A stretch of DNA of 38,054 nt, taken from positions 1-38,054 of the forward strand of contig NZ_AFPM01000112.1 in assembly GCF_000220565.1 (NCBI RefSeq), read 5' to 3'. Source of the DNA: Oceanicola sp. S124. GTDB taxonomy: Bacteria > Pseudomonadota > Alphaproteobacteria > Rhodobacterales > Rhodobacteraceae. The notes under the pieces are model-generated. The model made no database searches, had not been told where the DNA came from, and worked only from the letters and a program-made list of their open reading frames with translations. A program made the position numbers and the translations under genes. How positions within the stretch are numbered: the stretch's first letter is position 1; each line of letters opens with the position of its first letter. Below are positions 188 to 35,019 of the stretch, piece by piece.

Positions 188-1261
188 TCAGCGGTCGGCG
201 GCGAAGACCACCGCATCCTGTTGCCGGATCCAGATCCGTCCCGCCCCGCGCGGCTGCGGCACCTCGACGCTCAGCCGGATCGCGGTGCCGGCCACATGGG
301 CCTCTTGTTCGAAGTGATCGCCCAGATAGCTTTCAGCCCCGAACTCCACGTTGATTTCAGACGCATTTTCGCACGGGGTGCAACTGACGAGATGCGGACG
401 CATTGCCAGAAGCTGATCGCCCGTCGCCAGCGCACCCGTCGGGGTGCGGCCGCGGATCGCCTGCCCGTCGGGCAGCGTGACGGTGCAGGCGCCCGGCTCG
501 GCCACGGCCTCGCCCTTGACCGCCAGCAGGTTGGCATTGCCGATGAAGCTGGCGGCGAAAGGGTGTTGGGGATCGGTGTAGATCTGTTGCGGCGTCCCCA
601 GTTGCACCACCTTGCCTCCACGCATGACGACGATGCGGTCGGACATGGCCAGGGCCTCGTCCTGGTCGTGGGTGACATAGATCGTGGTCAGGCCCAGTTC
701 GCGCTGGATGTCCTTCAGCCAGATCCGCGCCTGCTGACGCAGCTGCGCATCAAGGTTGGACAGCGGCTCGTCCAGCAGCAGCAGCGGCGGGCGGAAGACG
801 ATGGCGCGGGCCAGCGCCACGCGCTGCTGTTGCCCGCCCGACAACTCGCCCGGGTAGCGTTTCGCCAGCGGGCCCAGCTCGACCAGCTCCAGCGCCTCGG
901 CGATGCGGCGGCCGCGCTCGGTCGCGCCCACCCTGCGCAGCTTCAGCGCCATGCCGACGTTGTCCTCGACGCTCAGGTGGGGCCAGAGCGCGTAGCTCTG
1001 GAACACCACGCCGAAACCGCGCGCCTCGGGCGGCAGGTAGGCCCCGGTGGCGGCATCGGCCAGCACGCGCTCGCCGAAGGTGATGCGCCCGCCGGTCGGC
1101 TGGTCGAGACCGGCGACAGAGGCCAGCGTCGTCGACTTGCCGCAGCCCGAGGGGCCAAGAAGGGTAAGGAATTCGCCCTCCTGCACGGTGAGGTTGATGC
1201 CGTCGATGGCCAGCGCCTGGCCGTAGCGGCGCGAGAGGTCGGAGAGAACGAGTTCAGTCAT
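188..1261 (-). CDS. ABC transporter ATP-binding protein (FbpC/PotA type)
   Basis: This 357-residue protein is the ATPase of an importer for a small solute; it sits on the cytoplasmic face and drives the permease encoded just upstream. The Walker A motif GPSGCGKST is at residues 36-44, the signature LSGGQQQR near 140, the Walker B LLLLDEP near 160 and the switch histidine in VTHD near 195. The last 120 residues form the TOBE-type regulatory domain normal for the iron/putrescine/thiamine ATPases, and the length fits that family. The start codon overlaps the permease stop by 8 bases, so the two are probably translationally coupled. The substrate cannot be read from the ATPase. Confidence 0.93.
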   Translation of the reverse strand: MTELVLSDLSRRYGQALAIDGINLTVQEGEFLTLLGPSGCGKSTTLASVAGLDQPTGGRITFGERVLADAATGAYLPPEARGFGVVFQSYALWPHLSVEDNVGMALKLRRVGATERGRRIAEALELVELGPLAKRYPGELSGGQQQRVALARAIVFRPPLLLLDEPLSNLDAQLRQQARIWLKDIQRELGLTTIYVTHDQDEALAMSDRIVVMRGGKVVQLGTPQQIYTDPQHPFAASFIGNANLLAVKGEAVAEPGACTVTLPDGQAIRGRTPTGALATGDQLLAMRPHLVSCTPCENASEINVEFGAESYLGDHFEQEAHVAGTAIRLSVEVPQPRGAGRIWIRQQDAVVFAADR

Positions 1262-2984
1262 AGATCTTAACCTTGAAGAGGACGCGGGCGAGGATCAGCA
1301 GCACGGCGATCAGCACGATCTGGAAGGAGGCGAAGGCGGCCAGCGGCCCCACGTCCCCGTTGGTCCAGAGCGAGAGCATCGACACGCCCATGACCTCGAG
1401 CCCCGGGGCCATCAGGAAGATGGCGATGATGTAGGACTTCAGGTGGAAGACGAAGAGCAGGATGAAGCTGCCAAGAAGCGCCGGTTTCAGCAGCGGCAGC
1501 AGCACGATGCGCATCGCCCCCAGCCAGTCGGCGCCGACGGTGCGCGCGGCCTTGTCGAGGTCGCGGCCGATCTGCACGATGGCGGGCTGGATCACCCCGA
1601 GCGCCAGCGGCAGGGTCGCCATGACATAGGCCACGACGATGATGCCGATATTGCCGCGCAGCCAGCCCATCGGGGGCAGGATCACCGCGGCGTAGAAGAT
1701 GCCGAGGCCGGTGATCATGCCGGGCACGATGCGCGGCGAATAGGCCAGCGCCTCAAGCGTGCCGGCCCAGCGGAAGTCGGATCTCTGGATCACCAGCGCC
1801 ACCGCCACCGCCAGCAGCGTGCCGAGGCTGGCCGAAAGCAGCGAGATCTCAACCGTGTTCCAGATCGCGCGGATATTGGCCTCATCCGCGAAGAGCTTGG
1901 TGAAGTTGTTCAGGGTCAGCACCTTGGAAACCGGCACCAGCGGCGACAGGAACGAGGTGAAAGCGCGCAGGATGATGCCCGCGATCGGCACCACGACCGT
2001 CGCCAGAAGCACCGCGGCGAAGAGGCCCGCCAGCGGCCAGCGCAACTTGCCGAGGCTCAGCACCATGGGGCGGGTGCCCTTGCCCTTGACGGTCTCGTAG
2101 CGGTGGCCGTGGCGCAGCAGCAGGCGTTGCACGATCAGGGTCGAGCCGACCAGCGCCATCAGCAGCAGCGACGAGGCCGCGACCAGCCCGTGGTTCGGGT
2201 TCGAGGCCGCGATGCCCTCGCCGTAGAGGAAGGTCGACAGGGTGTCGATCCGCGCCGGCCGGGCGAGGAAGAGCGGGATCGATAAGGTCTCGACCGCGAT
2301 CACCAGATTCAGCGCCGTCGAGGTGATGATCGAGGGGATCATCAGCGGCAGGGTGACCTTGCGCAGCACCTGCAGCGGGCCGGCGCCGACGGTGCGGGCC
2401 GCGCTCTCCAGCGTCGCATCGACCGAGCGGACGGCGCCGTAGAGGCAATAGAGATAGGCCAGCGGGGCCTGGCTGATACCGGCGACGACGGACATGCCGG
2501 CGATGGAATAGAGGTTCCAGGGCGCGGTGCCACCCATCTGCTGCGCGATGGACTGGGTGATGAAGCCCGAGGGGCCGTACATCACGACCCAGCCCAGGGC
2601 GAAGATCAGGTGCGACAGGTAGAGCGGCCACATCAGCACGTCGCCCATGACCTTGCGCCCGGGCATGTCGGTGCGCCCGATCAGCAGGGCGGCGGCGATG
2701 CCCAGCACCTCGGCGATGACGACGCTGAACAGCGCGAACAGGCCGGTGGTCAGGGCGATGCGCCCGATACGCTCGTCGCGGACAAGCTGGGCGATATTGT
2801 CCAGCGTGAACTGCCAGCCCTCGGAGTAGAGCGGACGGTCGACGACCACCTGCAGCAGGATCGGCAGCGCGGGCGCCAGCATCAGCGCGGCGGTGATGGC
2901 GAAGATCAGCCACTGCGCCAGGCGCGCCCGGTCGAAGGGCGGCGCGGCGCCGGGGCTGGTTCCGGTGACAGGCAGGAGAGCCAT
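1254..2984 (-). CDS. ABC transporter permease, fused two-domain (FbpB-like)
   Basis: At 576 residues this is a double-length permease with two BPD_transp_1 domains, each about six membrane helices, as in FbpB and related iron, thiamine or 2-aminoethylphosphonate transporters. Each half carries an EAA-type loop with the ...G...l....lP...P pattern: 'AARTVGAGPLQVLRKVTLPLM' near residue 205 (first half) and 'AARTVGADWLGAMRIVLLPLL' near 490 (second half). The near-identical AARTVGA sequence in both halves shows the internal duplication. The ATG at 2984 is preceded by AAAGGA. It lies between the binding protein (56 bases upstream, with a strong stem-loop in the gap) and the ATPase (8-base overlap). 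The single chain replaces two separate permease subunits. Confidence 0.92.
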   Translation of the reverse strand: MALLPVTGTSPGAAPPFDRARLAQWLIFAITAALMLAPALPILLQVVVDRPLYSEGWQFTLDNIAQLVRDERIGRIALTTGLFALFSVVIAEVLGIAAALLIGRTDMPGRKVMGDVLMWPLYLSHLIFALGWVVMYGPSGFITQSIAQQMGGTAPWNLYSIAGMSVVAGISQAPLAYLYCLYGAVRSVDATLESAARTVGAGPLQVLRKVTLPLMIPSIITSTALNLVIAVETLSIPLFLARPARIDTLSTFLYGEGIAASNPNHGLVAASSLLLMALVGSTLIVQRLLLRHGHRYETVKGKGTRPMVLSLGKLRWPLAGLFAAVLLATVVVPIAGIILRAFTSFLSPLVPVSKVLTLNNFTKLFADEANIRAIWNTVEISLLSASLGTLLAVAVALVIQRSDFRWAGTLEALAYSPRIVPGMITGLGIFYAAVILPPMGWLRGNIGIIVVAYVMATLPLALGVIQPAIVQIGRDLDKAARTVGADWLGAMRIVLLPLLKPALLGSFILLFVFHLKSYIIAIFLMAPGLEVMGVSMLSLWTNGDVGPLAAFASFQIVLIAVLLILARVLFKVKIYD

Positions 2985-3040: not shown

Positions 3041-4132
3041 TCACATCTTGAAGGCTTCGCCCCAACGGGCGTTGAAGGCTTCGAAGTTGGCGACCATCTC
3101 GGGATCGTAGTCGACGAGGATCAGGTTCTCTTCGCCGCCGATGGCCTCGATCACGTCATCCAGCGAGAAGGCGTTCTCGCCCTCGGGTTCGACGCCCGGA
3201 CGGTAGGCCGTCAGGTTGCCGGCGGCGACACCGTACTGGCCCGCCTCGGACAGGACGAAGTCCAGGAAGACGCGGGCGGCCGCGGCATGCGGTGCGCCCT
3301 CGGTGATGCCCATGCCGCGCAGGAAGACCGGCGTGCCGTCCGAGGGGAAGGTCCAGCCCAGCACCTCGCCGAGGCCATCGCCCAGCTTGCCGAAGACCAC
3401 CGGGCCCGAAACGAAGAACGAGGAGGCCAGCTCACCCGTCAGGGTGCGCTCGATCATGCCGCCCGCGCCGCCGCCGGGGCGGGTCAGCGGACCAGCCGAG
3501 GCGAACCAGTCCCATGCGGCATCGCCGTGGAACTTGGCGAAGGCATAGCCGATCGAGCCGCCGAAGGCATAGCGCCCGTCATAGGTGCCGATCTTGCCCT
3601 CGAAAACCTCGGGGTGGGCGACGATATTGCCGAAGTAGTCCTCCATGGCGCTGACCTGCAGCTCTTCGGGCACGGTGATCTTGTTGTAGATCGTGACCAT
3701 CGGGTCGGCCGAGAAGGTATAGAGACCCGCCTCGGGGTAGGACCATTCCGGCAGGTTGGCCTGTTCGGGCGAGGCATAGTCGGCCAGGGTCCCGGCCTCG
3801 ACGGCGCGGATCCAGTCGGGGATCGAATTGGCGATGATCAGGTCGGCGCTTTCGACGCCGGTGCCGGTCTCGGCCTGGTAGCGCGAGAAGGCCTCCGAGG
3901 GGCCCATCTCGATGGATTGCACGTCGATGTCCGGGTAGGCCTCGTTGAAGGCCGCAACCACGGGGCCGAGGTTGGCATTCGAGAGGTTGGTGTAGATCAG
4001 CAGCGAGCCCTCGGTCTGGGCCTGGGCGATCAGTTCGGCATAGTCGGCGGGATAGCCCGCGGGCACCTCCTGCGCCTGGGCGGCAGAGGCGGCGAGAAGG
4101 GCGGCGGCCCCGGTGATCCAGTAACGGGTCAT
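3041..4132 (-). CDS. ABC transporter periplasmic substrate-binding protein (FbpA/AfuA-like)
   Basis: This 363-residue protein starts with a Sec signal peptide (MTRYWITGAAALLAASAAQA, cleavage probably after AQA near residue 20) and then a type II binding fold of the iron/AEP/polyamine group. Typical blocks are 'EGSLLIYTNLS' near 41, 'ADLIIANS' near 97 and 'PMVTIYNK' near 145. The adjacent Tyr-Tyr pair that binds iron in FbpA is not visible, so an organic substrate is more likely than ferric iron. The start overlaps the hydrolase stop as ATGA, with CAGGAG upstream. It is the second gene of the operon and feeds the fused permease. The coupled hydrolase suggests an ester- or amide-bearing substrate (inference). 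Confidence 0.88.
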   Translation of the reverse strand: MTRYWITGAAALLAASAAQAQEVPAGYPADYAELIAQAQTEGSLLIYTNLSNANLGPVVAAFNEAYPDIDVQSIEMGPSEAFSRYQAETGTGVESADLIIANSIPDWIRAVEAGTLADYASPEQANLPEWSYPEAGLYTFSADPMVTIYNKITVPEELQVSAMEDYFGNIVAHPEVFEGKIGTYDGRYAFGGSIGYAFAKFHGDAAWDWFASAGPLTRPGGGAGGMIERTLTGELASSFFVSGPVVFGKLGDGLGEVLGWTFPSDGTPVFLRGMGITEGAPHAAAARVFLDFVLSEAGQYGVAAGNLTAYRPGVEPEGENAFSLDDVIEAIGGEENLILVDYDPEMVANFEAFNARWGEAFKM

Positions 4133-4980
4133 GTGACACTCCTGTTGGTGGTCTGGATGGTGCTTGCTTTTTCTTCGTTCAGCCAGTCCCGCAGGATCTG
4201 CGCGGCAGCCTCGGCGCAGGGGGCAAGCCTGTGCCCCACGCCTGGAATTTCGGTGAAGATGACCGGCGTGCCATGGGCCGCAAGGTCATCGTGCAGGGCG
4301 CGGGCGCGCTCTTGCCGGCTGGCCCCGGCCAGCCCGGCCCGGGCGGCGCCGAAGCGGGTGCCGGGGGCGCGGTCGACAAGGCCCGCGGCGCGGTCCTCGG
4401 CGCCGATCAGGATCGCGGTGCGCAGCCGGGCCATCCCGGCAAGGTCGGGGCTTGCGCCAACCGCGGCCTCGGCTCCGGCCAGGCCGGGCCACCAGTCGAC
4501 ATCGGGGCGCAGCAGGGTGACGCCTCCGGGGGCCGCCAGGATCAGGCCGTCAAGCCGCGCGGCGCGGAACAGCGCGTAGCGCTGCGCGAACTGCGCCCCG
4601 CCCGAGAAGCCGAAGAGCCAGGTCCGCGCGGGCGCGGCCGGAAGCCGGGACAACGCATCGGCCAGTATCGCATCCATCAGCGCCAGGTAATCCGCCCCGC
4701 CCCCGGTCAGGAACTTGTAGTCATCGCCCGTGTCCTCGCCCCCGATCCGGGCGGGAAAGACCGGCGCCAGCAGGGTGACATCGCCCTCCATCCCCAGTCC
4801 CTCGACCAGCCCGCGCAGATCGCGGTCGCTGCCATGGGCGGCGATCACCAGCGGCGCGCCGGGCCGCTGCGAGGGCCGCAGCACGTAGCGCCACGGCGTG
4901 CCGGGCAGTCCCTCTACGGGCAGCCCGGCCAGCCGGTCTTCGGCGTCGTTCCGTGTCGCGGTGTCGTCTGGGGAAGTCAT
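4129..4980 (-). CDS. Alpha/beta hydrolase (esterase/PHB-depolymerase-like)
   Basis: Read from the ATG at 4980 (GAAAGG upstream) the protein has 283 residues. An in-frame extension to 5070 exists, but it runs through the promoter palindrome and lacks a ribosome-binding site. The fold is a serine hydrolase: oxyanion strand LVIAAHGSDRD near residues 44-54, nucleophile elbow GFSGG with Ser126, acid candidates in ILIGAEDRAAG, and catalytic His in PGVGHRLAP near 252. No signal peptide, so it probably acts in the cytoplasm on what the downstream ABC system imports. It is first in the operon and overlaps the binding-protein gene by 4 bases. The substrate is unknown; an ester or polyester oligomer is possible. 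Confidence 0.83.
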   Translation of the reverse strand: MTSPDDTATRNDAEDRLAGLPVEGLPGTPWRYVLRPSQRPGAPLVIAAHGSDRDLRGLVEGLGMEGDVTLLAPVFPARIGGEDTGDDYKFLTGGGADYLALMDAILADALSRLPAAPARTWLFGFSGGAQFAQRYALFRAARLDGLILAAPGGVTLLRPDVDWWPGLAGAEAAVGASPDLAGMARLRTAILIGAEDRAAGLVDRAPGTRFGAARAGLAGASRQERARALHDDLAAHGTPVIFTEIPGVGHRLAPCAEAAAQILRDWLNEEKASTIQTTNRSVT

Positions 4981-5105: not shown

Positions 5106-5936
5106 TCAGGCTTCATGGGTCACCGCTGCCAGCACGCGGGTCTGCGACAGCACCGGCAGGCGGCGGCGGGTCTCGGCGACCTGTTCGGGGTCGATCTCGG
5201 CCAGGATCACGGCCGGCTCGTCTTCCGCCGCCGCCAGCACCTCACCCATGGGAGAGATGATGCGCGACTGCCCGAAGGTGGTGACGCCATCGCGGATGCC
5301 GCATTGCGCGGCGGCCACCACGTAGGAGCCGGTCTCGATGGCGCGCGCCTTCAGCAGGGTTTCCCAATGCAGTGGCCCGGTGATCGGCGAGAACGAGGCC
5401 GGGATCATCAGCACCGAGGCCCCTGCCCCGGCCAAAGCCCGGAAGAGATAGGCAAAGCGCAGGTCGTAGCAGATCGACAGGCCAAGCGTCAGGCCATCGG
5501 CCTCGCAGGTCACGGCCCCGCGTTCCCCAGGTGCCACGGCGCGGCTCTCGATGAAATCCCCGGCCCCGCCAAGCGCCACATCGAAGGTGTGCAGCTTGTC
5601 GTAGCGGGCCGAGATCCGCCCGTCGGGCGCGATCATGTGGCCCCGGTTCCAGGCCCGTCGGCCATCCTCGGTGCGCAGCAGAAGAGAGCCGGTGTGCAGC
5701 CAGATCCCCAGCTCGGCCGCCAGGTCGCGGCAGAGCGCCAGGGTCGTGTCCTCGGCCTCGGGCAGGCAGGTGGCGGGATAGGCCATCTGGTTCCGCAGCA
5801 GGATGTTGGCGGCCTCGGGCAGGCTGATCACCCGGGCGCCCCGCCCCGCGGCCTCGCGCACCAGGCGCGAAATCTCGGCGTTGTTGGCTGCCACATCGGC
5901 GGTGGAACACATCTGGATCGCGGCGAAACGGGTCAT
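5106..5936 (-). CDS. Carbon-nitrogen hydrolase (nitrilase superfamily amidase)
   Basis: This 276-residue enzyme hydrolyses a C-N bond, most likely an amide. The nitrilase triad is complete: Glu41 in SLPEA, Lys114 in RYDKLH and Cys156 in SICYDLRF. The length and the 'F.E.......G......V..GERG....' region fit the Nit/omega-amidase branch (NitFhit-like), not true nitrilases. The start at 5936 overlaps the pip stop as ATGA, with GAAAGG in the end of pip, so the two are almost certainly co-translated and share the lux-box promoter. Possible substrates include 2-oxo acid amides or deaminated glutathione as for Nit1, but the context points to an amide related to the Pip substrate or to the LuxR ligand (inference). 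Confidence 0.9.
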
Positions 5937-6838
5937 GCGCAGGCCCTTTCGAGGAAGCTGGCGACGGTGGCCATGCAGAGGTCATGTTCCTCGACATGGG
6001 GCATATGGCTGGACTTGCCCAAAAGCACCCATTCGGCGCCCGGGATCAGCTCGGCATAGGCGCGGGCGGCACGCGGGGTGGCCTCGTCGTGCAGGCCGGT
6101 CAGCACCAGGGTCGGGGCGGTGACCTGATGCAGGCGGTCCTCGATGGTCCAGTCCTTCAGGGTGCCGATGACGTGGAATTCGGTCGGGCCGTTCATCGTG
6201 TGATAGACCGTCGGATCGGCGGCGATGGCATCGAAGGTGGCGACCACCTCGGGCGGCCAGGGGTCCATGCGGCAGACATGGTTGCGATAGAAGACATCGG
6301 TGGCGGCAAGGTAGTCGGGATGCGCGAAATCGCCGGTTTGCTCGTAGGTCAGCAGCGTCTCGTGAATGCCCCCCGGCAGATCACGACGCAGGCGCAGCGC
6401 CTCTTCCACCCAGGTCGGGAAAGAGCTGGGAGAGTTCGCGATCACCAGCGCCTTCAGCCCCTGCGGGCACAGCACCGCATGTTCGGCCGCCAGCATGCCG
6501 CCCCAGCTCTGGCCCAGCAGGCAATAGCCGTCGCGGATGCTGAGGTGATCCAGCAGGGTGTCCAGCTCGGCCAGGAACAGCTCGACCGTCCAGAAATCCG
6601 CCCCCGCCTCGGGCAGGTGGGTCGAGAGGCCGTTGCCCAGCTGGTCGTAGTGCACCACGGCGCGCCCGGTCGCGGCCAGCGCCTTGTAGGCATCGACGTA
6701 GTCATGGGTACAGCCCGGGCCGCCATGGGCGATGACCAGCGGCGGCAAGGGGCTGCCCAGGTCTCCGGTCACCCTGTACCAGGTCTGATGGCCGCGGAAG
6801 GGGCAGAAGCCCTCCTGGGGGGTCACGTCTTGCGGCAT
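5933..6838 (-). CDS. pip: Proline iminopeptidase-family alpha/beta hydrolase
   Basis: The 301-residue protein belongs to peptidase family S33. HGGPG (residues 38-42) forms the oxyanion hole, YDQLGNG follows at 64-70, the nucleophile is Ser111 in GQSWGG, and the acid and base are the Asp of TGLHDEATP and the His of SSHMPHVEE. It would cleave N-terminal proline or small amino-acid amides in the cytoplasm. The ATG at 6838 has an AGGAG ribosome-binding site; a much longer in-frame reading to 7876 is rejected because it runs antisense through the aldolase gene. A near-consensus lux box lies 56 bases upstream. Pip genes with a lux box in the promoter are the known targets of plant-responsive LuxR solos, and such a LuxR gene is encoded 0.9 kb away. 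Confidence 0.9.
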
Positions 6839-6894
6839 CCGTTTCTCCTGTCGGTCGTTCGGCTGATCCTGCGCGATCGGTGCCCCGCCAGGTA

Positions 6895-6914
6895 AGCTGC
6901 AAGATCTTGCAGGG
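6895..6914. promoter_or_regulatory. lux box between pip and the aldolase gene
   Basis: AGCTGCAAGATCTTGCAGGG contains a perfect 16-bp palindrome (6897-6912) and matches 19 of 20 positions of the published lux-box consensus RNSTGYAXGATNXTRCASRT. Its centre is about 66 bases from the pip ATG and 60 bases from the aldolase ATG. Allowing the usual centre near -42, a transcript could start about 20 bases before either gene. It is the expected binding site for the LuxR-type protein at 7708-8397. Confidence 0.85.
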
Positions 6915-6964
6915 TGCCCGGGCTGCCACGCCCCGCTAGCCTGCGCCAAACAGCGGAGATCCCC

Positions 6965-7726
6965 ATGACCAGCCTGCGCCAGACACTGCTTGAGGGCACC
7001 CGCCTGCCCGGGGCCTTCCTCTTCCTCGGCAACCCCGATGTCGACGAGGTGATGGCCCTGGCCGGCTTCCCGCTGCTGATCGTCGACCGGGAACATGCCG
7101 CCGCCGACCTCTCGGGGGCGCTGCACGAGTTGCGGGCTATCCGCGCGGTCAGTGGCGCCTTCGTCATGGCGCGGGCCCGGGACGGCTCGGCGGGGGCGAT
7201 CAAGCCGCTGCTGGATGCGGGGTTCGACGGCGTGATGGTGGCCGATGTGCGCAGCGCCGCGCAGGCCCGTGCCATCGCCGAGGCCGCCCGCTATGCCCCG
7301 CTGGGCCGGCGGGGCGCGCAGTTCACCGTCTCGCGCGCTGCGCGCTACGGGGCCGACACGGATCACGCCGCCCGCGCCAATGCGGGGCTGCTGGTCGCGG
7401 TGATGATCGAAAGCCGCCAGGGCCTTGAGGCCATCGAGGAGATCGCCGCGGTGCCCGGCATCGACATGCTGTTCCTCGGCCCGCTCGACCTGACGACGGA
7501 CTACGGGACCTTCGGCGACCTCGCCTCTGCCGCGCTGGCCGATGCGCTGCGCGAGGCCGAGGCCCGGGTACGCGCCACCGGCTGCCTGCTGGGCGGCGCC
7601 TGCCTGCCGGGAGAAAGCCCCCAGGACCTTTTCGCGCGCGGTCACGTGCTGGTCAGCGCCACCTCGGATGTGGGCCTGCTGCGGGGGGCGGCGATGGCGG
7701 CGGCGGCTCAGGCGATCCAGCCCTGA
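6965..7726 (+). CDS. HpcH/HpaI-type class II pyruvate aldolase
   Basis: This 253-residue enzyme should catalyse metal-dependent reversible cleavage of a 4-hydroxy-2-oxo acid to pyruvate and an aldehyde. The active-site residues line up almost number for number with E. coli HpaI: His44 in DREHA, Arg70 in VMARAR, metal ligands Glu149 in MIESRQG and Asp175 in LGPLDL. The ATG at 6965 follows CGGAGAT; an upstream ATG at 6914 falls inside the lux-box region and is unlikely. It diverges from pip and shares the lux box, and its 3' end overlaps the LuxR gene tail to tail by 19 bases. The natural substrate is unknown. Confidence 0.88.
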
Positions 7727-8397
7727 CGCGTGGCGATGGCCACCGCATGGCTGCGGTTGCGCGCCCCCAGCTTCGCCCCTGCCGCCTGCAGGTGCTTGAC
7801 CACCATGCTTTCCGACCGGCCGAGCGCATGGGCGATCTGCTTGGCCGAGAGCCCCTCGGCGGTATGGGCCAGGCATTCGGCCTCACGCGGAGAGAGCGGT
7901 CCGCGATCCGGCGCCCGCCCGGCCGAGATCCGGTCCTGCAGGCGGAAGGCGTCCAGCGCGAAATGGGCCAGACGGTCGGCATCCGCCGGAGCATCGAGAA
8001 AGGCGCTGAGCGTGGCGAAGCCCCGCCCCGGCAGGTGCAGCGGCACGGTCATGCCGCGCCCCAGCCCCCAGGACAGCAATCGCTCGCGCACCTCGCCGAC
8101 ATCGGCGCGCGCCAGATCCGGCCCGATCTCCGAGGGCTCGCCGGCGTGGTAGCTCCAGTAGAACGGGTGCAGCAGCCGCGCCGCGCGACCCTGCACCGGG
8201 TCCGCCCGATAGAGCGCCCGCCCGCACCAGTCCTCCAGCAGCCGCTCGGCCGCGCCTCGGGCCTCGATCACCTCGGGCAGGGTGAAGCGCGCCGGGTCGG
8301 GCGAGAAGGGCACCGGGGAATAGTCATAGACCAGCCCCAGTACCCCTGCCCCCATGCGGGCCTGCAGGGCATCGACGTGGCGGGCGGCCGCGCTCAT
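7708..8397 (-). CDS. LuxR-family regulator with autoinducer-binding domain (plant-responsive solo type)
   Basis: The 229-residue protein has an autoinducer-binding domain (about 20-150) and a LuxR helix-turn-helix (about 165-225). Aligned without gaps on the DP pair of TraR (Asp70-Pro71 = Asp66-Pro67 here), Trp81 matches Trp85, while TraR Tyr61 is Trp57 and TraR Trp57 is Leu53. Tyr61 to Trp with a hydrophobic residue at 57 is the mark of the OryR/XccR/PipR group that senses plant compounds rather than acyl-homoserine lactones. DNA-binding residues Glu172, Leu176 and Gly182 match TraR Glu178, Leu182 and Gly188. The ATG overlaps the RraA-like stop as ATGA. No luxI-type gene is in the window. 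It probably acts at 6895-6914. Confidence 0.87.
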
Positions 8398-9074
8398 CCG
8401 GCGCGCTCTTCGGCGCTCAGTCGGGCGACCATCTCCGAGGCGCCGGACAGCTGGCCGATCTTCTCGCCCCGCGCGACCCCGGCGATGGTGCGGTCGGTCA
8501 GGGCCTGAAGCGCTTCGGCGCGGTCCAGCACGCCGGGCAGGTCGGCGGCGTGCAGGCTCACCACGCCAAGCGCATCGGCCAGCACCGCATCGCCCGGCAG
8601 CACCGGCACGCCGCCGACGCAGGCGGGCCGGTTCAGCGCCCCGCCCTGACCGGTCAGCCGCGTGGTCAACACGGCGGTGCCACGGCTGAAGACCGGCAGG
8701 CCGAGCGCCTGCAGCTCGGCGGTATCCGTGTGACAGCCGTCGATCACCACCCCCGCCGCGCCCGCATTGCGGATCGCCATGGCAACGCCGCCTCCCAGGC
8801 AGGCCGCCCGGGTATCGCCGCGCCGGTCGATGACCAGCACGTCTCCGGGCCGCAGCAGCCCCGCCGCATGGTGCAGCAGCGTCGAATCGAAGCCCGGCAG
8901 CGTCAGCGTCACCGCCGTGCCGACAAGGCGCGCCACCGGCCCGACCGGCGCGATCCCCGGATCCATCACCCCGCGGTCGAGGAAATGGCCCAGCAGGACG
9001 GTCTCGAAGGCCGCGAGGCGCGACAGGCGGTCGGCCGGCACGGGCTCTGGCATGGGGGCGATGGCATAGGTCAT
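8394..9074 (-). CDS. RraA-like / dimethylmenaquinone methyltransferase-fold protein (HMG/CHA aldolase family)
   Basis: The 226-residue protein has the RraA fold: 'G..vT..LPG' near 55, 'RPGDVLVIDRRGDTRAACLGG' (residues about 75-95) and 'AGAAGVVIDGCHTDTAEL' following. In active HMG/CHA aldolases the last block reads G.vRD, with Arg binding pyruvate and Asp serving the metal. Here the Asp is kept but the Arg position is Thr (CHTD), so aldolase activity is doubtful. The ATG at 9074 has GGAG upstream; a farther ATG at 9101 has none. The gene leads into the LuxR gene with a 4-base overlap, so both share one promoter facing the LysR gene at 9190. Confidence 0.78.
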   Translation of the reverse strand: MTYAIAPMPEPVPADRLSRLAAFETVLLGHFLDRGVMDPGIAPVGPVARLVGTAVTLTLPGFDSTLLHHAAGLLRPGDVLVIDRRGDTRAACLGGGVAMAIRNAGAAGVVIDGCHTDTAELQALGLPVFSRGTAVLTTRLTGQGGALNRPACVGGVPVLPGDAVLADALGVVSLHAADLPGVLDRAEALQALTDRTIAGVARGEKIGQLSGASEMVARLSAEERAG

Positions 9075-9138: not shown

Positions 9139-9164
9139 GATCAGGCCGATAGAATTTCCTGATC
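9139..9164. promoter_or_regulatory. Inverted repeat, probable LysR-type operator
   Basis: GATCAGG-N12-CCTGATC has perfect 7-bp arms and lies in the 115-bp divergent region between the RraA-like gene and the LysR gene, 26 bases before the LysR ATG. Position and spacing suit a LysR-type regulator controlling its own gene and its divergent neighbour. Confidence 0.55.
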
Positions 9165-9189
9165 ACCTGTGGCACCACCGGAGCGGCCC

Positions 9190-10122
9190 ATGCAGATCCA
9201 CAGCCTTCGCACCTTCTACTGGGTCACCCGGCTTTCCTCTTTCCGGCGCGCGGCGGAGGTGCTGAACATCTCGCAGCCCACGGTCTCGGCCCGCATCCGG
9301 GGACTGGAAGAAGAGCTGGGCGTCACCCTGCTGGACCGCACCGGCGGACTGGCCCTGACCGCGCCGGGGGAAGAACTGCTGGACTATGCCCGACAGGTGC
9401 TGCGCCTGACCGAGGACCTGTCCTTTCATCGCAGCCCCGACGTCCGCGCCACCCGTCTGCGCCTCGGCGCGAACGGCCCCGTGGCCGCAACATGGCTGAT
9501 GCCCATGGTCCGCGACCTTGAAACCCGCCACCCCGACCTGCGCCTCGAGATCGAGGTCAACCAGAGCGCCACCCTGCTGCGCCATCTCTCCTCGGGCCAG
9601 CTCGATATCGGTTTCGTCACCCCGGGCGCGGCGGCACCGGGGCTGCGCCTGACCCCGCTGGGCAGTTTCGCGATGACCTGGGTCGGCGCGGCGGGGCAGT
9701 TTCCCGGCCGGATGAGCGACGAGCAGATCGGCGCCTCTCCGATCATCGGCTACAGCTGGGATTCGCCGGTGCACGGCACCACCCATGCCCCCGCCTTCGG
9801 CCCCGGCCGCCACCACCGCTTCAGCCAGAGCGACAGCCTGTTCATGATGATCCGACTGGCGGTCGAGGGCGCGGGCCTCGCGCTGGTGCCCGAGGCGGCG
9901 GTGGCGCGGGAAGTGGCGCGAGGCGACCTCTGCCGGATCACCGCGGAAACCCCGCCGCAACCGCTGAGCCTCGCCGCCGCACAGCGCCGCGAAAGCCGGG
10001 GCGCCGCCGCCGAAAGCGCCCTGCGCTATGCGCTCGCGGTCAGCAGCACGACGACGGGCATGGCGGCGGGACCGGAAGAGACGAGACCGGAAAAGACGGG
10101 GATACCCCCGTTCAGCTCCTGA
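9190..10122 (+). CDS. LysR-family transcriptional regulator
   Basis: The 310-residue protein opens with the LysR helix-turn-helix (MQIHSLRTFYWVTRLSSF...AAEVLNISQPTVSARIRGLEEELGVTLLDR, in pieces) followed by a substrate-binding domain from about residue 90 ('TRLRLGANGPVA', later 'EGAGLALVPEAAVAREV'). The ATG at 9190 has GGAG 7 bases upstream; a farther ATG at 9169 lacks one. It diverges from the RraA-like/LuxR genes and shares the operator at 9139-9164, so that pair is its likely target. The last 20 residues are a Lys/Glu/Arg/Pro-rich tail beyond the usual fold, and the gene end overlaps the CocE hydrolase gene tail to tail by 11 bases. The effector is unknown. Confidence 0.9.
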   Translation: MQIHSLRTFYWVTRLSSFRRAAEVLNISQPTVSARIRGLEEELGVTLLDRTGGLALTAPGEELLDYARQVLRLTEDLSFHRSPDVRATRLRLGANGPVAATWLMPMVRDLETRHPDLRLEIEVNQSATLLRHLSSGQLDIGFVTPGAAAPGLRLTPLGSFAMTWVGAAGQFPGRMSDEQIGASPIIGYSWDSPVHGTTHAPAFGPGRHHRFSQSDSLFMMIRLAVEGAGLALVPEAAVAREVARGDLCRITAETPPQPLSLAAAQRRESRGAAAESALRYALAVSSTTTGMAAGPEETRPEKTGIPPFSS

Positions 10123-12022
10123 GCACCTGCAACTCAAGCACCGTGCCCTCGCCGAGATGCACGGTGTTGTGCGCCACGCGGCTGCCGCGCGCGGTGCCCT
10201 CGGGTTCCCCGGTGTTGAAGTTGATATCGTACTTGGGGAAGTTCGACGAGGAGATGTCCAGCCGCAGCCGGTGCCCGGCCTTGAACAGGTTCACCGTGGC
10301 GAAGGGGGTGATGGTGATCTCGAAGGCACCCTCGTCCGGCGCGACCAGCTCGGGACGGTCATAGCCCTTGCGGTAGCGCACCCGGAAGATGCCGTCGGTC
10401 ACATTCATCGCGTAGCCGCGCGGGTAGTCCGATGACGGAGGATAGACATCCACCAGCTTGGCGGTGAAGTCGGTATCCGGCGCATCGGTCGAAACCTTCA
10501 GGCGGATCGTCACCGGCCCCGCCACCAGCAGGTCCCCGGCCAGCGGCGCGGTCTGGAAGGACAGCACGTCGCGGCGCGCGATCAGCGGCATCCCGGGATT
10601 GGTGCAGCCGAAGAAGCGCGCATCCTCGGTCTGATCGAAGGCGCCCCCCTCGAAGATCGGCTCGCCCGAGGTCAGCGAACCGCCGATCGTCGGCACCGGA
10701 TTGACCGGGTCATAGGCATAGCCCATCTCGCCCGCGGCCGGGGTCGCCGACAGCGACATGTCGGGCGCCGGGTAGAGGCGCAGCGCCTCTGCCTCGGGGA
10801 TCGGCCAGTCGGAGGCCTCGATCCAGTGGCCGCCGTGATCCAGGTGCCCCTCGGGCGTCTTGCGGCCCGAACCGCCGCCCATGACGAAAAGGTGCACCCG
10901 CTCGTCACGCAGGCTCTCGGCCTGGTCCTGATCCTTCAGCCAGCGGGCGAAGAACTTCAGGCGGAAGGCCAGCCAGTCCTCGTCGACCTGGCCGTCGAAG
11001 ACCGCCGCGGGGCCGAAATCGACATCGCCGAAGATCCGGCGTGAACGGTTGCCATGGGTCCAGGGGCCCATGATCAGGGTCAGCGGCCGGGCGGCAGAGC
11101 CCTTGAGGCCGGTGTAATTCTCAAGCGTGGTCTGCACGTAGGCGTCATACCAGCTGGACATGAAGATAATCGGGATCTTCGGGAAATCGTGGTAATAGCC
11201 CGCTGCCCAGATGCCGGTCTTCTTCCAGAAGTCATCGAAGGTGCCGTGCTGCCACTGGTCCAGCAGGTAGCCCTCGTAATCGGGATCCCAGCGGACCGGA
11301 GAGCGGCCCCTGGTCCAGGGGGTGCGGGTCATCCAGCCGGCGAGGTCCTCGGCCTCGATGGCGCCCAGGACGGCGGGATCGGCCGCGGCAAGCGGCGCTT
11401 CCATGGCGCGATTGTAGGCCCAGGTGGCCTGTTTCATCTCGAGCGCGCCACCCTGGCGGATGCCGCAGGTGAAGGCGTTCGAGAAGCCGCCCGAGTCGAC
11501 CGCCATGCAGGCCAGTCCCGGCGGGTTCAGGCAGGCCATGGCCATCTGAACATGGGCGTCATAGCTCAGCCCCATGGTGCCGACGCGGCCATTGCCGAAG
11601 TCCTGCGCCGCGATCCAGACCATGCTGTCATAGCCGTCCTCGGCCTCGTTGAGGTACTTGGTGAAGCTGCCCTCGCTGTCGTAGCGGCCCCGGCAGTCCT
11701 GCCAGATCACCACGTAGCCCTCGGCGACCAGCTTGATGGCCAGTTCGGGGCGGCTGTAGGGGGTGGGGCGCGCCACGGAGAGCTCGGTCCGGGGCGTGCC
11801 CGCCTTGTCATAGGGCGTGCGTTCGAAGATCACCGGACGGGGCGCGGGATCCGCCCCGCCATCGGCGCCAGCCGGGCGATAGACATCGGTGGCAAGGCGC
11901 ACGCCGTCCCGCATCGCAACCATCACGTTGCGATGCACGACCACCCCCGGCGCAACCGGCTCGGCCGGCGTCAGGGAAGCTGTTTCAAGCAGGGTATCAG
12001 TGGGGGTGGTCATGGGGATCAT
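10112..12022 (-). CDS. CocE/NonD family hydrolase (X-Pro dipeptidyl-peptidase S15 type)
   Basis: This 636-residue serine hydrolase has the three-part CocE layout: an alpha/beta core opening with 'MRDGVRLATDVYRPA', nucleophile elbow GLSYDAH with the oxyanion tyrosine, a helical cap, and a C-terminal jelly-roll with 'GHRLRLDISSSNFPKYDIN' near 590. The usual motif is GxSYxG; here an Ala-His pair follows the Asp, a small variation. It would cleave esters or acyl-proline bonds of imported molecules; no signal peptide is seen, so it is cytoplasmic. The ATG at 12022 overlaps the binding-protein stop as TAATG; another ATG lies three codons later. It is the last gene of the peptide-type transporter operon. 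Confidence 0.88.
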   Translation of the reverse strand: MIPMTTPTDTLLETASLTPAEPVAPGVVVHRNVMVAMRDGVRLATDVYRPAGADGGADPAPRPVIFERTPYDKAGTPRTELSVARPTPYSRPELAIKLVAEGYVVIWQDCRGRYDSEGSFTKYLNEAEDGYDSMVWIAAQDFGNGRVGTMGLSYDAHVQMAMACLNPPGLACMAVDSGGFSNAFTCGIRQGGALEMKQATWAYNRAMEAPLAAADPAVLGAIEAEDLAGWMTRTPWTRGRSPVRWDPDYEGYLLDQWQHGTFDDFWKKTGIWAAGYYHDFPKIPIIFMSSWYDAYVQTTLENYTGLKGSAARPLTLIMGPWTHGNRSRRIFGDVDFGPAAVFDGQVDEDWLAFRLKFFARWLKDQDQAESLRDERVHLFVMGGGSGRKTPEGHLDHGGHWIEASDWPIPEAEALRLYPAPDMSLSATPAAGEMGYAYDPVNPVPTIGGSLTSGEPIFEGGAFDQTEDARFFGCTNPGMPLIARRDVLSFQTAPLAGDLLVAGPVTIRLKVSTDAPDTDFTAKLVDVYPPSSDYPRGYAMNVTDGIFRVRYRKGYDRPELVAPDEGAFEITITPFATVNLFKAGHRLRLDISSSNFPKYDINFNTGEPEGTARGSRVAHNTVHLGEGTVLELQVLRS

Positions 12023-13596
12023 TACTCGGCAGAGGTCACTTTTTGCGGCAGGGTCTGTTCGGACAGACCGGCGTCGATGGTCAGCCCGTCACGCAGGCCC
12101 CAATGCACCTTCTGCCAGTAGAGCGGCACGATCGGGGTCTCGTCGAAGACCAGCTTGGTGGCGTCTTCCAGCTTGGCGATGCGGGTCTCGGGGTCGAACT
12201 CCTGCAAGGCGTCGGCCAGGGCCGCGTCGAAGGCGGGCGAGGAGAAGCGGACGCGGTTGAAGGCGCCCTTGCCGGCCTCCTTGTCGTAGGTGTGCAGCAA
12301 GGACTGCAGGTTCGGCGCCGAGGTCGGCGTGGAGGAGCCAAGCGAGAAGACGAAGGCACCGTAGTCGCCCGCCGAGGCGGCCTTGGAGTAGACCGAGTAG
12401 GGCAGCGCTTCGACGCCGTTCACCTTCAGGCCACCGCGCGACAGCATCTGGCCAAGCGCCTGCACGAGGTCCCCGTCGCCGGGGAAGCGGTCGTTCGAGC
12501 TGTAGAGCGTCAGGCCGAAGCCATCGGGATAGCCGGCCTCGGCCAGCAGTTCCTTGGCCTTGGCCACGTCCGGCGTGTCGGCCGGCACATCGGCGTTGTG
12601 ACCGCCAAGCGCGTCCGGCACCAGCTGGCCCGCAGGCACGCCCGAGCCGCCAAGGATGCGATCCACGATCAGCTCGCGGTCGATCATCAGCGAGATCGCC
12701 TTGCGGACGCGGGCGTCCTTGAAGGGATTCTCAGCCAGCGGGTTGCCATCGAGATCGGTGACGGCCGGCGCCTGGTCGAAGCGCATCGACAGGCCCAGGT
12801 AGATCACCCGGCCCGAAGCCGTCGAGAAGACATGCATCCCGTCGGTGCCCTCAAGGCGCGCCACATCCTGCGGCGGCACCGCGTCGATCACGTCGACCGC
12901 GCCCGACAGCAGCGCCGCAACCCGGGCCGCGTCGTTCGAGATGTAGCGGATCTCGACCTCGTTGAACTCGGGCACGGTGCCCCAGTAATCGGCATTGGCG
13001 TGCATGGTCAGGGTCTCGCCCGGCTTCCACTCTTCCAGCACGTAGGGGCCGGTGCCGACGGCGGTGGCGGGCGACGAGAAGTCCTCGCTTGCCTTGCCCT
13101 CTGCGGCGGCCTTCGAGATGATGAAGACGCGGCCGATGTCCTCCATCAGCGCCGGGTTCGGCACGTTGGTGGTGATCTTGACGGTCAGGTCGTCAACGGC
13201 CTCGACGGTGGCCAGCGAGGACACCATGTCGGTGTAGGGCGCGGGCGAGTTCGGCACCTCGTCGGCGCGTTCCAGCGAATAGACCACGTCGGCGGCGGTG
13301 AAGGGCGACCCGTCGTGGAAGGTCACGCCTTCGCGCAGCTTCAGCAGCCAGGTGGTCTCGTCCTGGATCTCCCAGCTCTCGGCGAGGCCGGGGGAGACCT
13401 GGAGGTTCTCGTCGAAGGCCACCAGGCGGTCGAAGAACATGGTCGAGGTCATCTGGTTGTTGCCGGTCCGCGAAAACTGCGGGTCGATAGAGCTTTGCTC
13501 GGAGGCGCGGCCGATGGTCAGATCGGCGGCCCAGGCAGGCATCAGCCAGGTGGTGGACAGAAGGGCCGCAAGGGCGGCGGTCTTGGTCAGGCGCAT
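12022..13596 (-). CDS. Peptide-type ABC transporter substrate-binding protein (SBP family 5)
   Basis: The 524-residue protein has a signal peptide (MRLTKTAALAALLSTTWLMPAWA, cleavage about residue 24) and the family 5 hallmarks: 'WEIQDETTWLLKLREGVTFHDGSPFTAADVVYSLE' (residues about 72-106, in pieces), 'GTGPYVLEEWKPGE' near 165, and 'IVPLYWQKVHWGLRDG' near the C-terminus. It captures peptides, glutathione-like or other oligomeric solutes in the periplasm. It comes after both ATPase genes, 18 bases from the second, and before the CocE hydrolase, instead of leading the operon as is more usual. The substrate cannot be told from sequence alone. Confidence 0.92.
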   Translation of the reverse strand: MRLTKTAALAALLSTTWLMPAWAADLTIGRASEQSSIDPQFSRTGNNQMTSTMFFDRLVAFDENLQVSPGLAESWEIQDETTWLLKLREGVTFHDGSPFTAADVVYSLERADEVPNSPAPYTDMVSSLATVEAVDDLTVKITTNVPNPALMEDIGRVFIISKAAAEGKASEDFSSPATAVGTGPYVLEEWKPGETLTMHANADYWGTVPEFNEVEIRYISNDAARVAALLSGAVDVIDAVPPQDVARLEGTDGMHVFSTASGRVIYLGLSMRFDQAPAVTDLDGNPLAENPFKDARVRKAISLMIDRELIVDRILGGSGVPAGQLVPDALGGHNADVPADTPDVAKAKELLAEAGYPDGFGLTLYSSNDRFPGDGDLVQALGQMLSRGGLKVNGVEALPYSVYSKAASAGDYGAFVFSLGSSTPTSAPNLQSLLHTYDKEAGKGAFNRVRFSSPAFDAALADALQEFDPETRIAKLEDATKLVFDETPIVPLYWQKVHWGLRDGLTIDAGLSEQTLPQKVTSAE

Positions 13597-13614
13597 GGGT
13601 TGGCTCCTTGTTGG

Positions 13615-14673
13615 TCAGTCGATTGCGGGGATGTCGCCGGTCGTGACGCCGGCTTCGGAAAGTGGCCGCCCGGTGCCGCCATCGAGGTGGCAGGCAACGG
13701 AATGACCGGGGCTGGCCTGGGTCAGCGCCGGACGCTCGGTCCGGCACCTGTCCATGGCGAAGGGGCAGCGGGGGTGGAAATGGCACCCCTGCGGCGGGTT
13801 CACCGGCGAGGGGATTTCCCCCTTCACCGAGGAAAAGCGGTGGCCGCGCCGGTCGATCCGGGGGATCTCTTCCAGCAGGGCCTGGGTATAGGGATGGCGC
13901 GCCGCGTCGAAGATGCGGTCGGTGGGGGCGGTCTCGACCACCCGGCCGAGGTACATGATCACCACCCGGTCCGAGATGTAGCGCACCACGGACAGGTCAT
14001 GGCTGATGAAGAGCAGGGTCAGCGACAGCTCCTCGCGCAGCCGCACCAGCAGGTTGATCACCTGCGCCTGGATCGAGACATCCAGCGCGGCGATGCTTTC
14101 ATCGCAGATCAGGAAATCCGGGTTCACGGCCAGCGCGCGCGCAATGCCGATGCGCTGCCGCTGCCCGCCCGAGAACTGGTGCGGATAGCGGTTGGCCATG
14201 GCGGGATCGAGACCCACGAGCCCCATCAGCCGCTCGACCTCTGCCCGCACCTCGGAGCGTTTCACCAGCCCGTGCAGCCGGGGCGCCTCGCCAATGATGT
14301 CCACGACCTTCTTGCGCGGGTTCAGCGAGGACATCGGGTCCTGGAAGATGATCTGCGTGGCAAGGCGCATGGCGCGCGCCTCGGCGCCCTTCAGCTTGGC
14401 GATGTCCTTGCCGTCGCGGGCGACCTGACCGGAGGTCACCGGCAGCATGCCCGCCACGACGCGGCCCAGGGTGGACTTGCCGCAACCGCTCTCGCCCACG
14501 AGGCCCACGACCTCACCCTCGGCGATCTGCAACGACACGTCGTCCAGCGCATGGACGGTCGGCGGCTCCTCGGCCAGCCCGACGCGCATGGCAAGGCGCT
14601 CGGCCAGGTCGGTCTTGCGGCGGAAATGCTTGGTGACGCCCGCCACCTCGATCATCGGAGCGGTCCCGGTCAT
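13615..14673 (-). CDS. dppF: Oligopeptide/dipeptide ABC transporter ATP-binding protein (DppF/OppF type)
   Basis: This 352-residue ATPase has Walker A GESGCGKST at residues 60-68, signature FSGGQ, Walker B FLICDESIAALD and switch HD in FISHDLSV. The 20-residue insertion 'RKTDLAERLAMRVGLAEEPP' before the first core strand is common in OppF. The C-terminal oligo-HPY region carries cysteines (GCHFHPRC, then MDRC and VAC) like those that can hold an iron-sulfur cluster in this family. The start overlaps the dppD-type stop as ATGA. The symbol marks the family position only; the transported solute is unknown. Confidence 0.92.
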   Translation of the reverse strand: MTGTAPMIEVAGVTKHFRRKTDLAERLAMRVGLAEEPPTVHALDDVSLQIAEGEVVGLVGESGCGKSTLGRVVAGMLPVTSGQVARDGKDIAKLKGAEARAMRLATQIIFQDPMSSLNPRKKVVDIIGEAPRLHGLVKRSEVRAEVERLMGLVGLDPAMANRYPHQFSGGQRQRIGIARALAVNPDFLICDESIAALDVSIQAQVINLLVRLREELSLTLLFISHDLSVVRYISDRVVIMYLGRVVETAPTDRIFDAARHPYTQALLEEIPRIDRRGHRFSSVKGEIPSPVNPPQGCHFHPRCPFAMDRCRTERPALTQASPGHSVACHLDGGTGRPLSEAGVTTGDIPAID

Positions 14674-15647
14674 GCCATGGCCTCCTCTTCAAGCGGGTGG
14701 AAGCAGCGCCAGCCCCTGCCCTGTGCCTCGGTCTCGGCCGGTTCGGACAGGCAGGCCTCGGTGGCGCGGGCGCAGCGGGGGCGGAAAGGGCAACCCTCGG
14801 GGCGGCCAAGCGGCGGCGGCGCATTGCCGGGGATCTGGCGCAGCGGCTGGCCGCGGTCGTTCTCCATCGGCAGGCTGTCGATCAACCCGCGGGTATAGGG
14901 GTGGCGCGGGGTGTCCAGCACCTCGTCCACGGTGCCGCGCTCGACGATGCGGCCCGCGTACATGACGGCCACCTTGTTGGCGAGCTGGCCGACCACGCCC
15001 AGGTCGTGGCTGATCCAGATCAGCCCCATGCCCATCTCGCGGGTCAGGGTCTGCACCTCGGAGAGGATCTGGCTCTGGATCGTCACGTCCAGCGCGGTGG
15101 TGGGCTCATCCGCGATGATCAGATCGGGCTTGTGCAGCAGGGCGATGGCGATGGCGACGCGCTGGCGCATCCCGCCCGAGAACTCGTGCGGATAGGCGTC
15201 GATGCGTTCATCGGGGTGCGGGATGCCGACCTGGCACAGGGCGTCGCGGGCCTTGGCGCGGGCCTCGGCCTTGCTGACCTTGGCATGGGCGCGCACCGTC
15301 TCGATCATCTGGGTGCCGATGCGCAGAACCGGGTTCAGCGTCATCATCGGGTCCTGGAAGATCATCGCGATGCGGTTGCCGCGCAGGTCGCGCAACCGAC
15401 GCGGGCTGGCAGAGCGCAGGTCCTCGCCAAGGAAGCGGATGTCGCCCTCGACCACCCGGCCCGGCGGATCGACCAGACCCAGCAGCGAGAAGCCGGTGAT
15501 CGACTTGCCCGAGCCGCTTTCGCCGACCAGGCCCAGGATCTCGCCGCGCTCCAGCGTCAGGTCGACGCCATCCACGGCCTTGACGGTGCCTTTCGGCGTT
15601 TCGAACCATGTGCGCAAGCCGCGCACTTCCAGAAGGGGATCACTCAT
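14670..15647 (-). CDS. dppD: Oligopeptide/dipeptide ABC transporter ATP-binding protein (DppD/OppD type)
   Basis: The 325-residue ATPase has Walker A GESGSGKS at 42-49, signature FSGGM, Walker [13 protein letters not shown] and switch WISHD. The C-terminal region GCPFRPRC...EAC...RC has the four-cysteine arrangement typical of OppD/DppD proteins. It pairs with the next ATPase to form the nucleotide-binding heterodimer. The start overlaps the upstream permease stop by 4 bases, and its own stop overlaps the next gene by 4. Substrate specificity lies elsewhere. Confidence 0.93.
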
Positions 15648-21591: not shown

Positions 21592-21612
21592 GACAGCTCT
21601 CCTTCGCCGTAC

Positions 21613-34875: not shown

Positions 34876-34985
34876 GGGGCCTCGCTGAGCTGGGTCGCAC
34901 GAGACTAGCGCCCTTCGCCGCCGCTGGCGAGCGGCTCCTCCCCCCGCCGGACCGTCTTTCGCAGCCCCGCCCGAATGGCAATCAC

Positions 34986-35001
34986 TTAGGTATTGACCTA
35001 A
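34986..35001. promoter_or_regulatory. ArsR operator 1
   Basis: TTAGGT-N4-ACCTAA, perfect 6-bp arms, overlapping a TTGACC (34993-34998) that fits a -35 element of the ArsR gene. The wider ATCACTTAGG (34981-34990) is repeated exactly at 35015-35024. Confidence 0.72.
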
Positions 35002-35019
35002 ATCACAAAGCGCGATCAC

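Follow-up and report, generated by a model that had tools for sequence, protein, structure and literature searches.

A pip-linked LuxR solo as a probable substrate-responsive activator of predicted amide uptake and breakdown genes

Introduction

Do LuxR solos that are encoded beside a proline iminopeptidase-family gene (pip) read a signal or a substrate? This question is raised by a stretch of DNA from Oceanicola sp. S124, one entire contig of 38,054 bases (hereafter, the window) from a 4.65-Mb genome assembly that is 91.7% complete, in which a LuxR-type regulator gene, pip and a lux-type box at 6895-6914 lie close together. The initial annotation described a plant-responsive type of signalling module in a Rhodobacteraceae-like genome. 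The host assignment was correct, as the window genome shares its family with Roseicitreum antarcticum (L014, G303) and Monaibacterium marinum (L005, G211). As for function, we consider it probable that this clade-specific, pip-linked LuxR works independently of an N-acyl homoserine lactone (AHL) synthase, as a local substrate-responsive activator of a block of genes for amide uptake and breakdown.

In its available sections, a 2023 review defines the PAB subgroup of LuxR solos, places its members in plant or terrestrial environments and gives the substitutions W57M and Y61W and adjacency to pip, whose mode of action it calls unknown (PMC10134790). The accessible part of another survey names Rhodobacter, Citreicella and Mesorhizobium among the holders of XccR/OryR-type receptors (PMC4338825), so the presence of this type in those groups is not new. 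PipR carries W57 and W61, and PsrR is accompanied by lux-like boxes, according to the portion available of a third source (PMC7301841). In the searches that we made of the open-licence literature we found no prior description of a Leu57 clade, of a nitrilase/aldolase/ABC (ATP-binding cassette) block or of a box shared by two divergent promoters.

Results

A lux-type box between two divergent genes

In the window, positions 6895-6914 read AGCTGCAAGATCTTGCAGGG and fit 19 of the 20 positions of RNSTGYANGATNNTRCASRT, which we take to be the degenerate lux-box consensus of the lux literature. A scan of the whole window returned no other match of at least 18/20, and 0.033 matches of at least 19/20 are expected per 38 kb (first-order Markov simulation, 60 runs). 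The box and its immediate surroundings are laid out as follows.

5933-6838, minus strand: pip, proline iminopeptidase-family alpha/beta hydrolase (TIGR01250; best Protein Data Bank match 7a6g)
6866-6871, minus strand: -10-like hexamer CAGGAT of a predicted pip promoter, 25 nt from the box core and a weak match to TATAAT
6895-6914, no strand assigned: lux-type box between the divergent hpaI and pip genes, with a 16-bp perfect palindrome as its core (6897-6912), aligned in 8/8 loci
6937-6942, plus strand: -10-like hexamer TAGCCT of a predicted hpaI promoter, separated from the box core by 24 nt
6965-7726, plus strand: HpcH/HpaI-family aldolase gene (hpaI; PF03328, 92.6 bits), its 3' end overlapping the 3' end of luxR
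7708-8397, minus strand: LuxR solo of the pip-linked subfamily, Leu57/Trp61 in TraR numbering (Autoind_bind 41.7 bits, GerE 44.8 bits)

The palindrome is no evidence by itself, since simulation predicts 1.6 of this kind per 38 kb. What lifts the box beyond chance is its conservation in the pip promoter of all eight loci that carry the block, the window included. Among these promoters, alignment shows the exact 16-mer in five and a single change in Roseicitreum. The sequence TGCAAGATCTTGCA has one exact copy in the 4.65-Mb genome, and the 12 other places found at two mismatches or fewer all carry two. A looser half-site scan of the window was set aside: it gave 47 matches at up to three mismatches where 22.8 were expected (0/100 shuffles reached 47), with sites that were scattered and did not include position 6895.

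On both sides of the box, the alignment revealed hexamers at nearly constant distances. Towards the aldolase gene, 24 nt separate the box core from a TA-initial hexamer in 7/7 loci with hpaI; towards pip, a CA-initial hexamer lies at 25 nt in seven of the eight loci and at 24 nt in the remaining one. These spacings therefore put the box centre near -44 of both predicted promoters. LuxR-type activators sit at about such a position. Judged by its sequence setting, the box could act on the aldolase gene as well as on pip, a double role that the initial annotation did not consider.

A conserved block of uptake and breakdown genes

The box belongs to a larger unit, the remaining members of which are listed here in window order.

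188-1261, minus strand: ABC ATPase, PhnT2/PotA-like, scoring below the PhnT2 and PotA cut-offs
1254-2984, minus strand: ABC permease, 84-94% identical to those of seven relatives
3041-4132, minus strand: periplasmic binding protein of a ferric/aminoethylphosphonate-like ABC importer
4129-4980, minus strand: alpha/beta hydrolase with no Pfam or NCBIfam match at E 0.001, whose model resembles PahZ1/LpqC
5106-5936, minus strand: nitrilase-superfamily amidase, deaminated-glutathione-amidase/Nit2-like, its start overlapping the pip stop
8394-9074, minus strand: RraA-like aldolase-family gene (rraA), its stop overlapping the luxR start, in an rraA-luxR operon
9147-9165, no strand assigned: TGAT...CTATC element in the LysR/rraA divergent promoter, a possible LysR site
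9190-10122, plus strand: LysR-type regulator, divergent to rraA-luxR in 8/8 loci

The genes for ATPase, permease, binding protein, hydrolase, nitrilase and pip all run leftward and are closely packed. Pip scores 249.7 bits against a cut-off of 167.65 for TIGR01250, the NCBIfam proline-iminopeptidase subfamily model, and passes no equivalog model. For the nitrilase, the best NCBIfam models are those of deaminated-glutathione amidase, well under their cut-offs, and the matching structures are of Nit2 type. The hydrolase model has a mean predicted local distance difference test score (pLDDT) of 76.8 and is nearest to LpqC and to PahZ1, a poly(aspartic acid) hydrolase, at 16-22% identity, which is a likeness of fold only. 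Pip, nitrilase and aldolase all carry what we take to be their active-site motifs.

These genes recur together. The block (LysR, rraA-luxR, hpaI and pip-nitrilase-hydrolase-ABC importer) was found in seven other genomes, six of them Rhodobacterales, so that eight module loci were compared: the window's, six from a search of genome contigs and one on a Roseicitreum plasmid. The genome-contig search yielded 12 loci, six with the block and six Pseudomonas luxR-pip loci, and all 12 were used; a further 14 of 640 matching plasmid records supplied additional LuxR sequences. The nine handles for module genomes include two duplicates (G002=G394, G211=G397). By tblastn, LysR, RraA, LuxR, pip, nitrilase, hydrolase, binding protein and permease are collinear in the six loci and on the Roseicitreum plasmid, with the ATPase next in line in 7/7 relatives; in 6/7 the ABC genes are followed by a GntR gene. 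One locus, L002, was used throughout except in the hydrolase alignments, because the range available for it contained a stop; its record (G002:C44) is titled 'Enemella evansiae TN21-6', an actinobacterial name, but matches a genome of the window's family, so the species label looks wrong.

Of the unit that the initial annotation had outlined, luxR, aldolase, pip and nitrilase-family amidase all stand, as do its lux box in the pip promoter, the operon shared by pip and the amidase (their stop and start overlap) and the LuxR with an autoinducer domain 0.9 kb away (pip and luxR are 873 bp apart, with hpaI between them). The unit is larger than described, taking in the rraA-luxR operon, the divergent LysR, the hydrolase and the ABC importer. 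Likewise, an aldolase gene does separate luxR from pip, as was remarked at the time, but this is no local oddity, since the layout is conserved: hpaI holds this position in 7/8 loci, the window included. In Mesorhizobium sp. Z1-4, which lacks hpaI, luxR, box and pip follow one another directly in the textbook order. Because the tree described below leaves the basal fork of the module clade open, hpaI may have been either gained or lost.

The block is rare. Of 394 family genomes, four gave a LuxR match at E<=1e-40, and the same four matched the binding protein at E<=1e-90; in a class-wide draw, LuxR matches at E<=1e-18 appeared in 4 of 385 genomes, namely the window's, two with luxR-pip-Opp loci and one with a locus at a contig end. 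Because the block is plasmid-borne in Roseicitreum and absent from the only same-genus genome sampled, its distribution suggests horizontal spread.

Between LysR and rraA, an alignment of the eight loci shows a second conserved element, separate from the box, with its CTATC half in 8/8 and its TGAT half in 7/8. This TGAT...CTATC element suggests LysR control of rraA-luxR.

The receptor is a pip-linked LuxR solo with leucine at position 57

An AlphaFold model of the window's LuxR (mean pLDDT 85.5, predicted template-modelling score 0.67) finds its best Foldseek matches in TraR, LasR, RhlR, QscR and SdiA over nearly full length, with TM-scores of about 0.4-0.5, so the arrangement of its domains differs from that in the matched structures. 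In the numbering of TraR of pTiBo542, all eight module LuxRs carry L57, W61, D70, P71, W85, G113, E178, L182 and G188. Trp61 (the Y61W substitution) is present in 20/20 pip-linked sequences. At position 57, the other 12 pip-linked sequences have methionine (six) or tryptophan (six), whereas the module sequences have leucine in 8/8. Of the two PAB/OAB traits, W57M and Y61W, the module thus shows the second throughout and a third residue in place of the first. W57 and Y61 occur together in 6/8 AHL-type sequences, and the other two, from Sphingobium, combine W57 with F or V in place of Y61. We labelled sequences as AHL-type by annotation (TraR), adjacent AHL synthase genes (two Sphingobium, one Halomonas) or a traM neighbour (one); for L021, L022 and L023 the label is our own reading only. 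The 11-residue recognition-helix stretch is identical in all eight module LuxRs and differs in the 12 other pip-linked LuxRs.

In a tree of 28 sequences, the eight AHL-type receptors separate from the 20 pip-linked LuxRs at a support of 100/99. The module LuxRs form a clade (100/100) within the pip-linked set, with Nitratireductor sp. OM-1 as sister (98/95). The pip-linked sequences include Pseudomonas protegens (the species of PsoR), other Pseudomonas, Rhizobium, Sinorhizobium, Phyllobacterium, Aureimonas, Rahnella and Nitratireductor, while the OryR, XccR, NesR and PipR sequences and L087-L089 were left out. The tree was built once with all branches, including long outgroup branches that were flagged and whose joins may be false. 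Residues and tree together make it well supported, from sequence comparison, that this LuxR is a member of the pip-linked LuxR-solo subfamily that deviates at position 57.

Of 23 loci examined that have a LuxR of this kind, 22 carry pip no more than 1.1 kb from luxR; the remaining one, G493, has luxR 1.3 kb from the contig end, and no pip was found in the stretch fetched. Within 3 kb of luxR, a peptide-type (Opp) ABC permease gene occurs in 10/15 non-module pip-linked loci and was not found at L009-L012 (Pseudomonas) or L089. Across the stretches searched around the eight module loci, only the window has one, in an Opp operon of its own beyond LysR; the peptide-type/Opp genes of Monaibacterium (L085) lie farther off, at the opposite end of the block. 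Two alphaproteobacterial luxR-pip loci, L087 and L088, have three pip-family hydrolase matches together with Opp genes.

No AHL synthase was found in the window genome

The initial annotation saw no luxI-type synthase and named, as one outcome that would refute its proposal, grouping of the LuxR with AHL sensors together with a luxI partner elsewhere. The phylogenetic check places the protein with the 12 other pip-linked LuxRs and apart from AHL receptors, and a genome-wide search for PF00765 returned a single match of 20.9 bits, below the cut-off, so neither was found for the window genome. The open reading frame behind that match, on contig C220, was rejected as a luxI candidate: it is of OlsB type, with ornithine N-acyltransferase (OlsB) models as its best though sub-threshold matches and a GNAT Pfam domain. 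Absence of luxI from the window genome is therefore strongly indicated, though not absolute, because the assembly is 91.7% complete.

The module as such occurs in genomes both with and without luxI. Two of the module genomes gave borderline PF00765 matches, Roseicitreum at 26.8 bits and Tritonibacter at 22.4 bits (24.2-24.4 with neighbours), and in the seven other module genomes all matches lie on other contigs or at least about 200 kb away. The window genome also encodes a second autoinducer-domain protein (contig C66, 99.6 bits), near an open reading frame that we read as EF-Ts; the available part of an earlier survey lists an EF-Ts-type context for Rhodobacterales LuxR solos (PMC4338825).

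The box beyond the pip promoter

Homologues of the Roseicitreum operon for a tripartite ATP-independent periplasmic (TRAP) transporter adjoin the block in 3/7 relatives, and in all three a second box, with an altered centre base in one case, lies upstream of them. The exact 14-mer has eight copies in the eight module genomes, six in pip/hpaI promoters and two in TRAP promoters, with none in the Celeribacter and Monaibacterium genomes. Among 295 sampled family genomes it occurs in five, namely two module genomes and 3 of the 292 without the block, and the 3 kb surrounding each of these three block-less boxes (L097-L099) held no match to the block proteins. At the 12 other pip-linked loci we found no site within two mismatches of the 16-mer, which agrees with the different recognition helices of their LuxRs.

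Related sequences exist elsewhere. The Roseicitreum chromosome has a 14-mer variant, TGCAAGATGTTGCA, and sites with one mismatch are also present outside the blocks in module genomes. On the Nitratireductor OM-1 plasmid, an imperfect palindrome, CTGTAAGTTCTTCCAG, stands at 8682 of L015 just before the Opp genes; it has three changes relative to the module box and may be a diverged operator.

Discussion

How might this block work as a circuit? The LysR regulator would set the expression of rraA-luxR. LuxR would then bind a small ligand other than an AHL, probably an amide or an amide derivative that enters through the ABC (or TRAP) importer, and the liganded dimer would bind the conserved palindrome at 6895-6914. 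From near -44, it would activate both divergent promoters, one for pip-nitrilase-hydrolase-ABC and the other for the aldolase gene. If the enzyme families are a guide, the encoded proteins would take up the amide and hydrolyse it, and a resulting hydroxy-oxo acid would be cleaved.

Several observations weigh against a substrate-responsive activator. Five of the eight module genomes have a convincing luxI elsewhere (PF00765 at least 73 bits), which makes an AHL ligand possible there. The box is degenerate in two of the eight loci, with three changes in Celeribacter and five in Monaibacterium. For two of the three TRAP boxes, the distance to the predicted start is 284 and 323 bp (142 bp for the third). 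No box accompanies the TRAP-type genes of the window itself (19.7-22.6 kb), which have a binding protein of another kind. The -10 hexamers were spotted after alignment, in related loci, so their spacing is no independent test. Finally, none of the block enzymes passes an NCBIfam equivalog cut-off.

The first alternative, which we regard as unlikely, is a plant- or algae-responsive interkingdom module like OryR/PipR, with a host-made ligand and pip as a host-interaction gene. It shares with the substrate-responsive activator the receptor subfamily, the luxR-pip linkage and the lux-type box at pip, and the available sections of the 2023 review, which derive the PAB subgroup from plant or terrestrial bacteria, count Rhodobacter among its genera (PMC10134790). 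Against it, leucine replaces methionine or tryptophan at position 57, and the peptide-type transporter common near other pip-linked luxR genes gives way to another importer class. The only stated source, that of Roseicitreum, is Antarctic intertidal sediment. Five of the eight hosts belong to genera that we take to be marine or coastal. The pip-linked LuxR solo near pip, the conserved box and the missing luxI of the initial annotation are thus retained, whereas its label 'plant-responsive' is not supported by the residue at position 57, the importer class or the several presumably marine-type genera.

Less probable still is an AHL-eavesdropping solo that senses AHLs of its own luxI or of neighbours and drives pip and nitrilase as public-goods or quenching enzymes. 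TraR, LasR and RhlR are the best structural matches, D70, P71, W85 and G113 are kept, and luxI genes are present elsewhere in the five genomes just mentioned. Yet the receptor combines Y61W with W57L and groups apart from AHL-type receptors, the window genome yielded no luxI, and the PF00765 matches of the other seven genomes are remote from the block. Slimmest of all is the chance that the palindrome is an operator of another factor with a coincidental likeness to lux boxes: a LysR gene is in the block in 8/8 loci, GntR lies behind the ABC genes of most relatives and palindromes this long are expected by chance, but the 19/20 consensus fit falls at pip, closely similar copies precede TRAP operons, the LysR/rraA intergenic region has its own, different conserved element and the 16-mer is missing from the 12 loci whose LuxR recognition helices differ.

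Set beside the known pip-linked solos of the PAB/OAB groups (XccR, OryR, PsoR, NesR, PipR and PsrR), the module is alike in having a LuxR solo near pip, Y61W with D70, P71 and W85, a lux-type box in the pip promoter as candidate site and an ABC importer nearby. An N-terminal YDYS/T-type motif is also common to the module LuxRs and the aligned pip-linked sequences. The module differs in Leu57, in several hosts of presumably marine-type genera, in the aldolase gene between luxR and pip (7/8 loci), in the rraA-luxR operon with a divergent LysR, in the nitrilase and PahZ1-like hydrolase behind pip, and in a ferric/aminoethylphosphonate-like ABC importer (with a TRAP transporter as well in three genomes) instead of Opp. 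The closest relative outside the clade, plasmid pOM-1 of Nitratireductor sp. OM-1 (L015), has homologous pip, nitrilase, hydrolase, ABC importer and GntR (42-68% identity) but differs in Met57, in attached peptide-type ABC genes, in lacking hpaI and rraA matches and in having no site within two mismatches of CTGCAAGATCTTGCAG. With AHL receptors such as TraR, LasR, RhlR and SdiA, the module LuxR shares the two domains and the helix-turn-helix residues E178, L182 and G188; it differs from them in L57/W61 for W57/Y61 and in the lack of a luxI partner in the searched window genome.

Here the pip-linked receptor type goes together with a particular set of enzymes, a different class of importer and a single well-delimited candidate operator, and does so outside plant-setting genera too, which makes the choice between signal and substrate testable. 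We tentatively suggest that the LuxR-pip circuit may fundamentally be a nutrient switch. The OryR/PipR-type 'plant signal' would then be one instance of a wider response to amides that are imported and degraded by pip. The module might then, with the same reserve, be described as an ABC and/or TRAP importer, three amide/ester hydrolases and two aldolase-family genes under a quorum-sensing-type receptor. In the accessible text of the 2023 review, a protein closely homologous to the HEHEAA transporter protein fails to bind this compound, which points to other effectors (PMC10134790). If the nutrient switch is true, a receptor family known for plant sensing may have a broader role in sensing nutrients. 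As for marine hosts, the available text of a VarR paper on the seaweed pathogen Nautella italica has 'proline iminopeptidase' only in its reference list.

Other genes in the window

Directly behind LysR, positions 10112-17508 hold a CocE/NonD-family hydrolase gene and the genes of the oligopeptide-type (Opp) ABC importer, with no lux box. An amidohydrolase gene follows at 18635-22608 together with genes for a DctM-type TRAP permease and an NMT1-like binding protein, again with no lux box in that stretch. The contig that carries the amide block also has, at 34123-35019, a gene like that for the alpha subunit of haem-dependent oxidative N-demethylase (PF11927, 172.5 bits).

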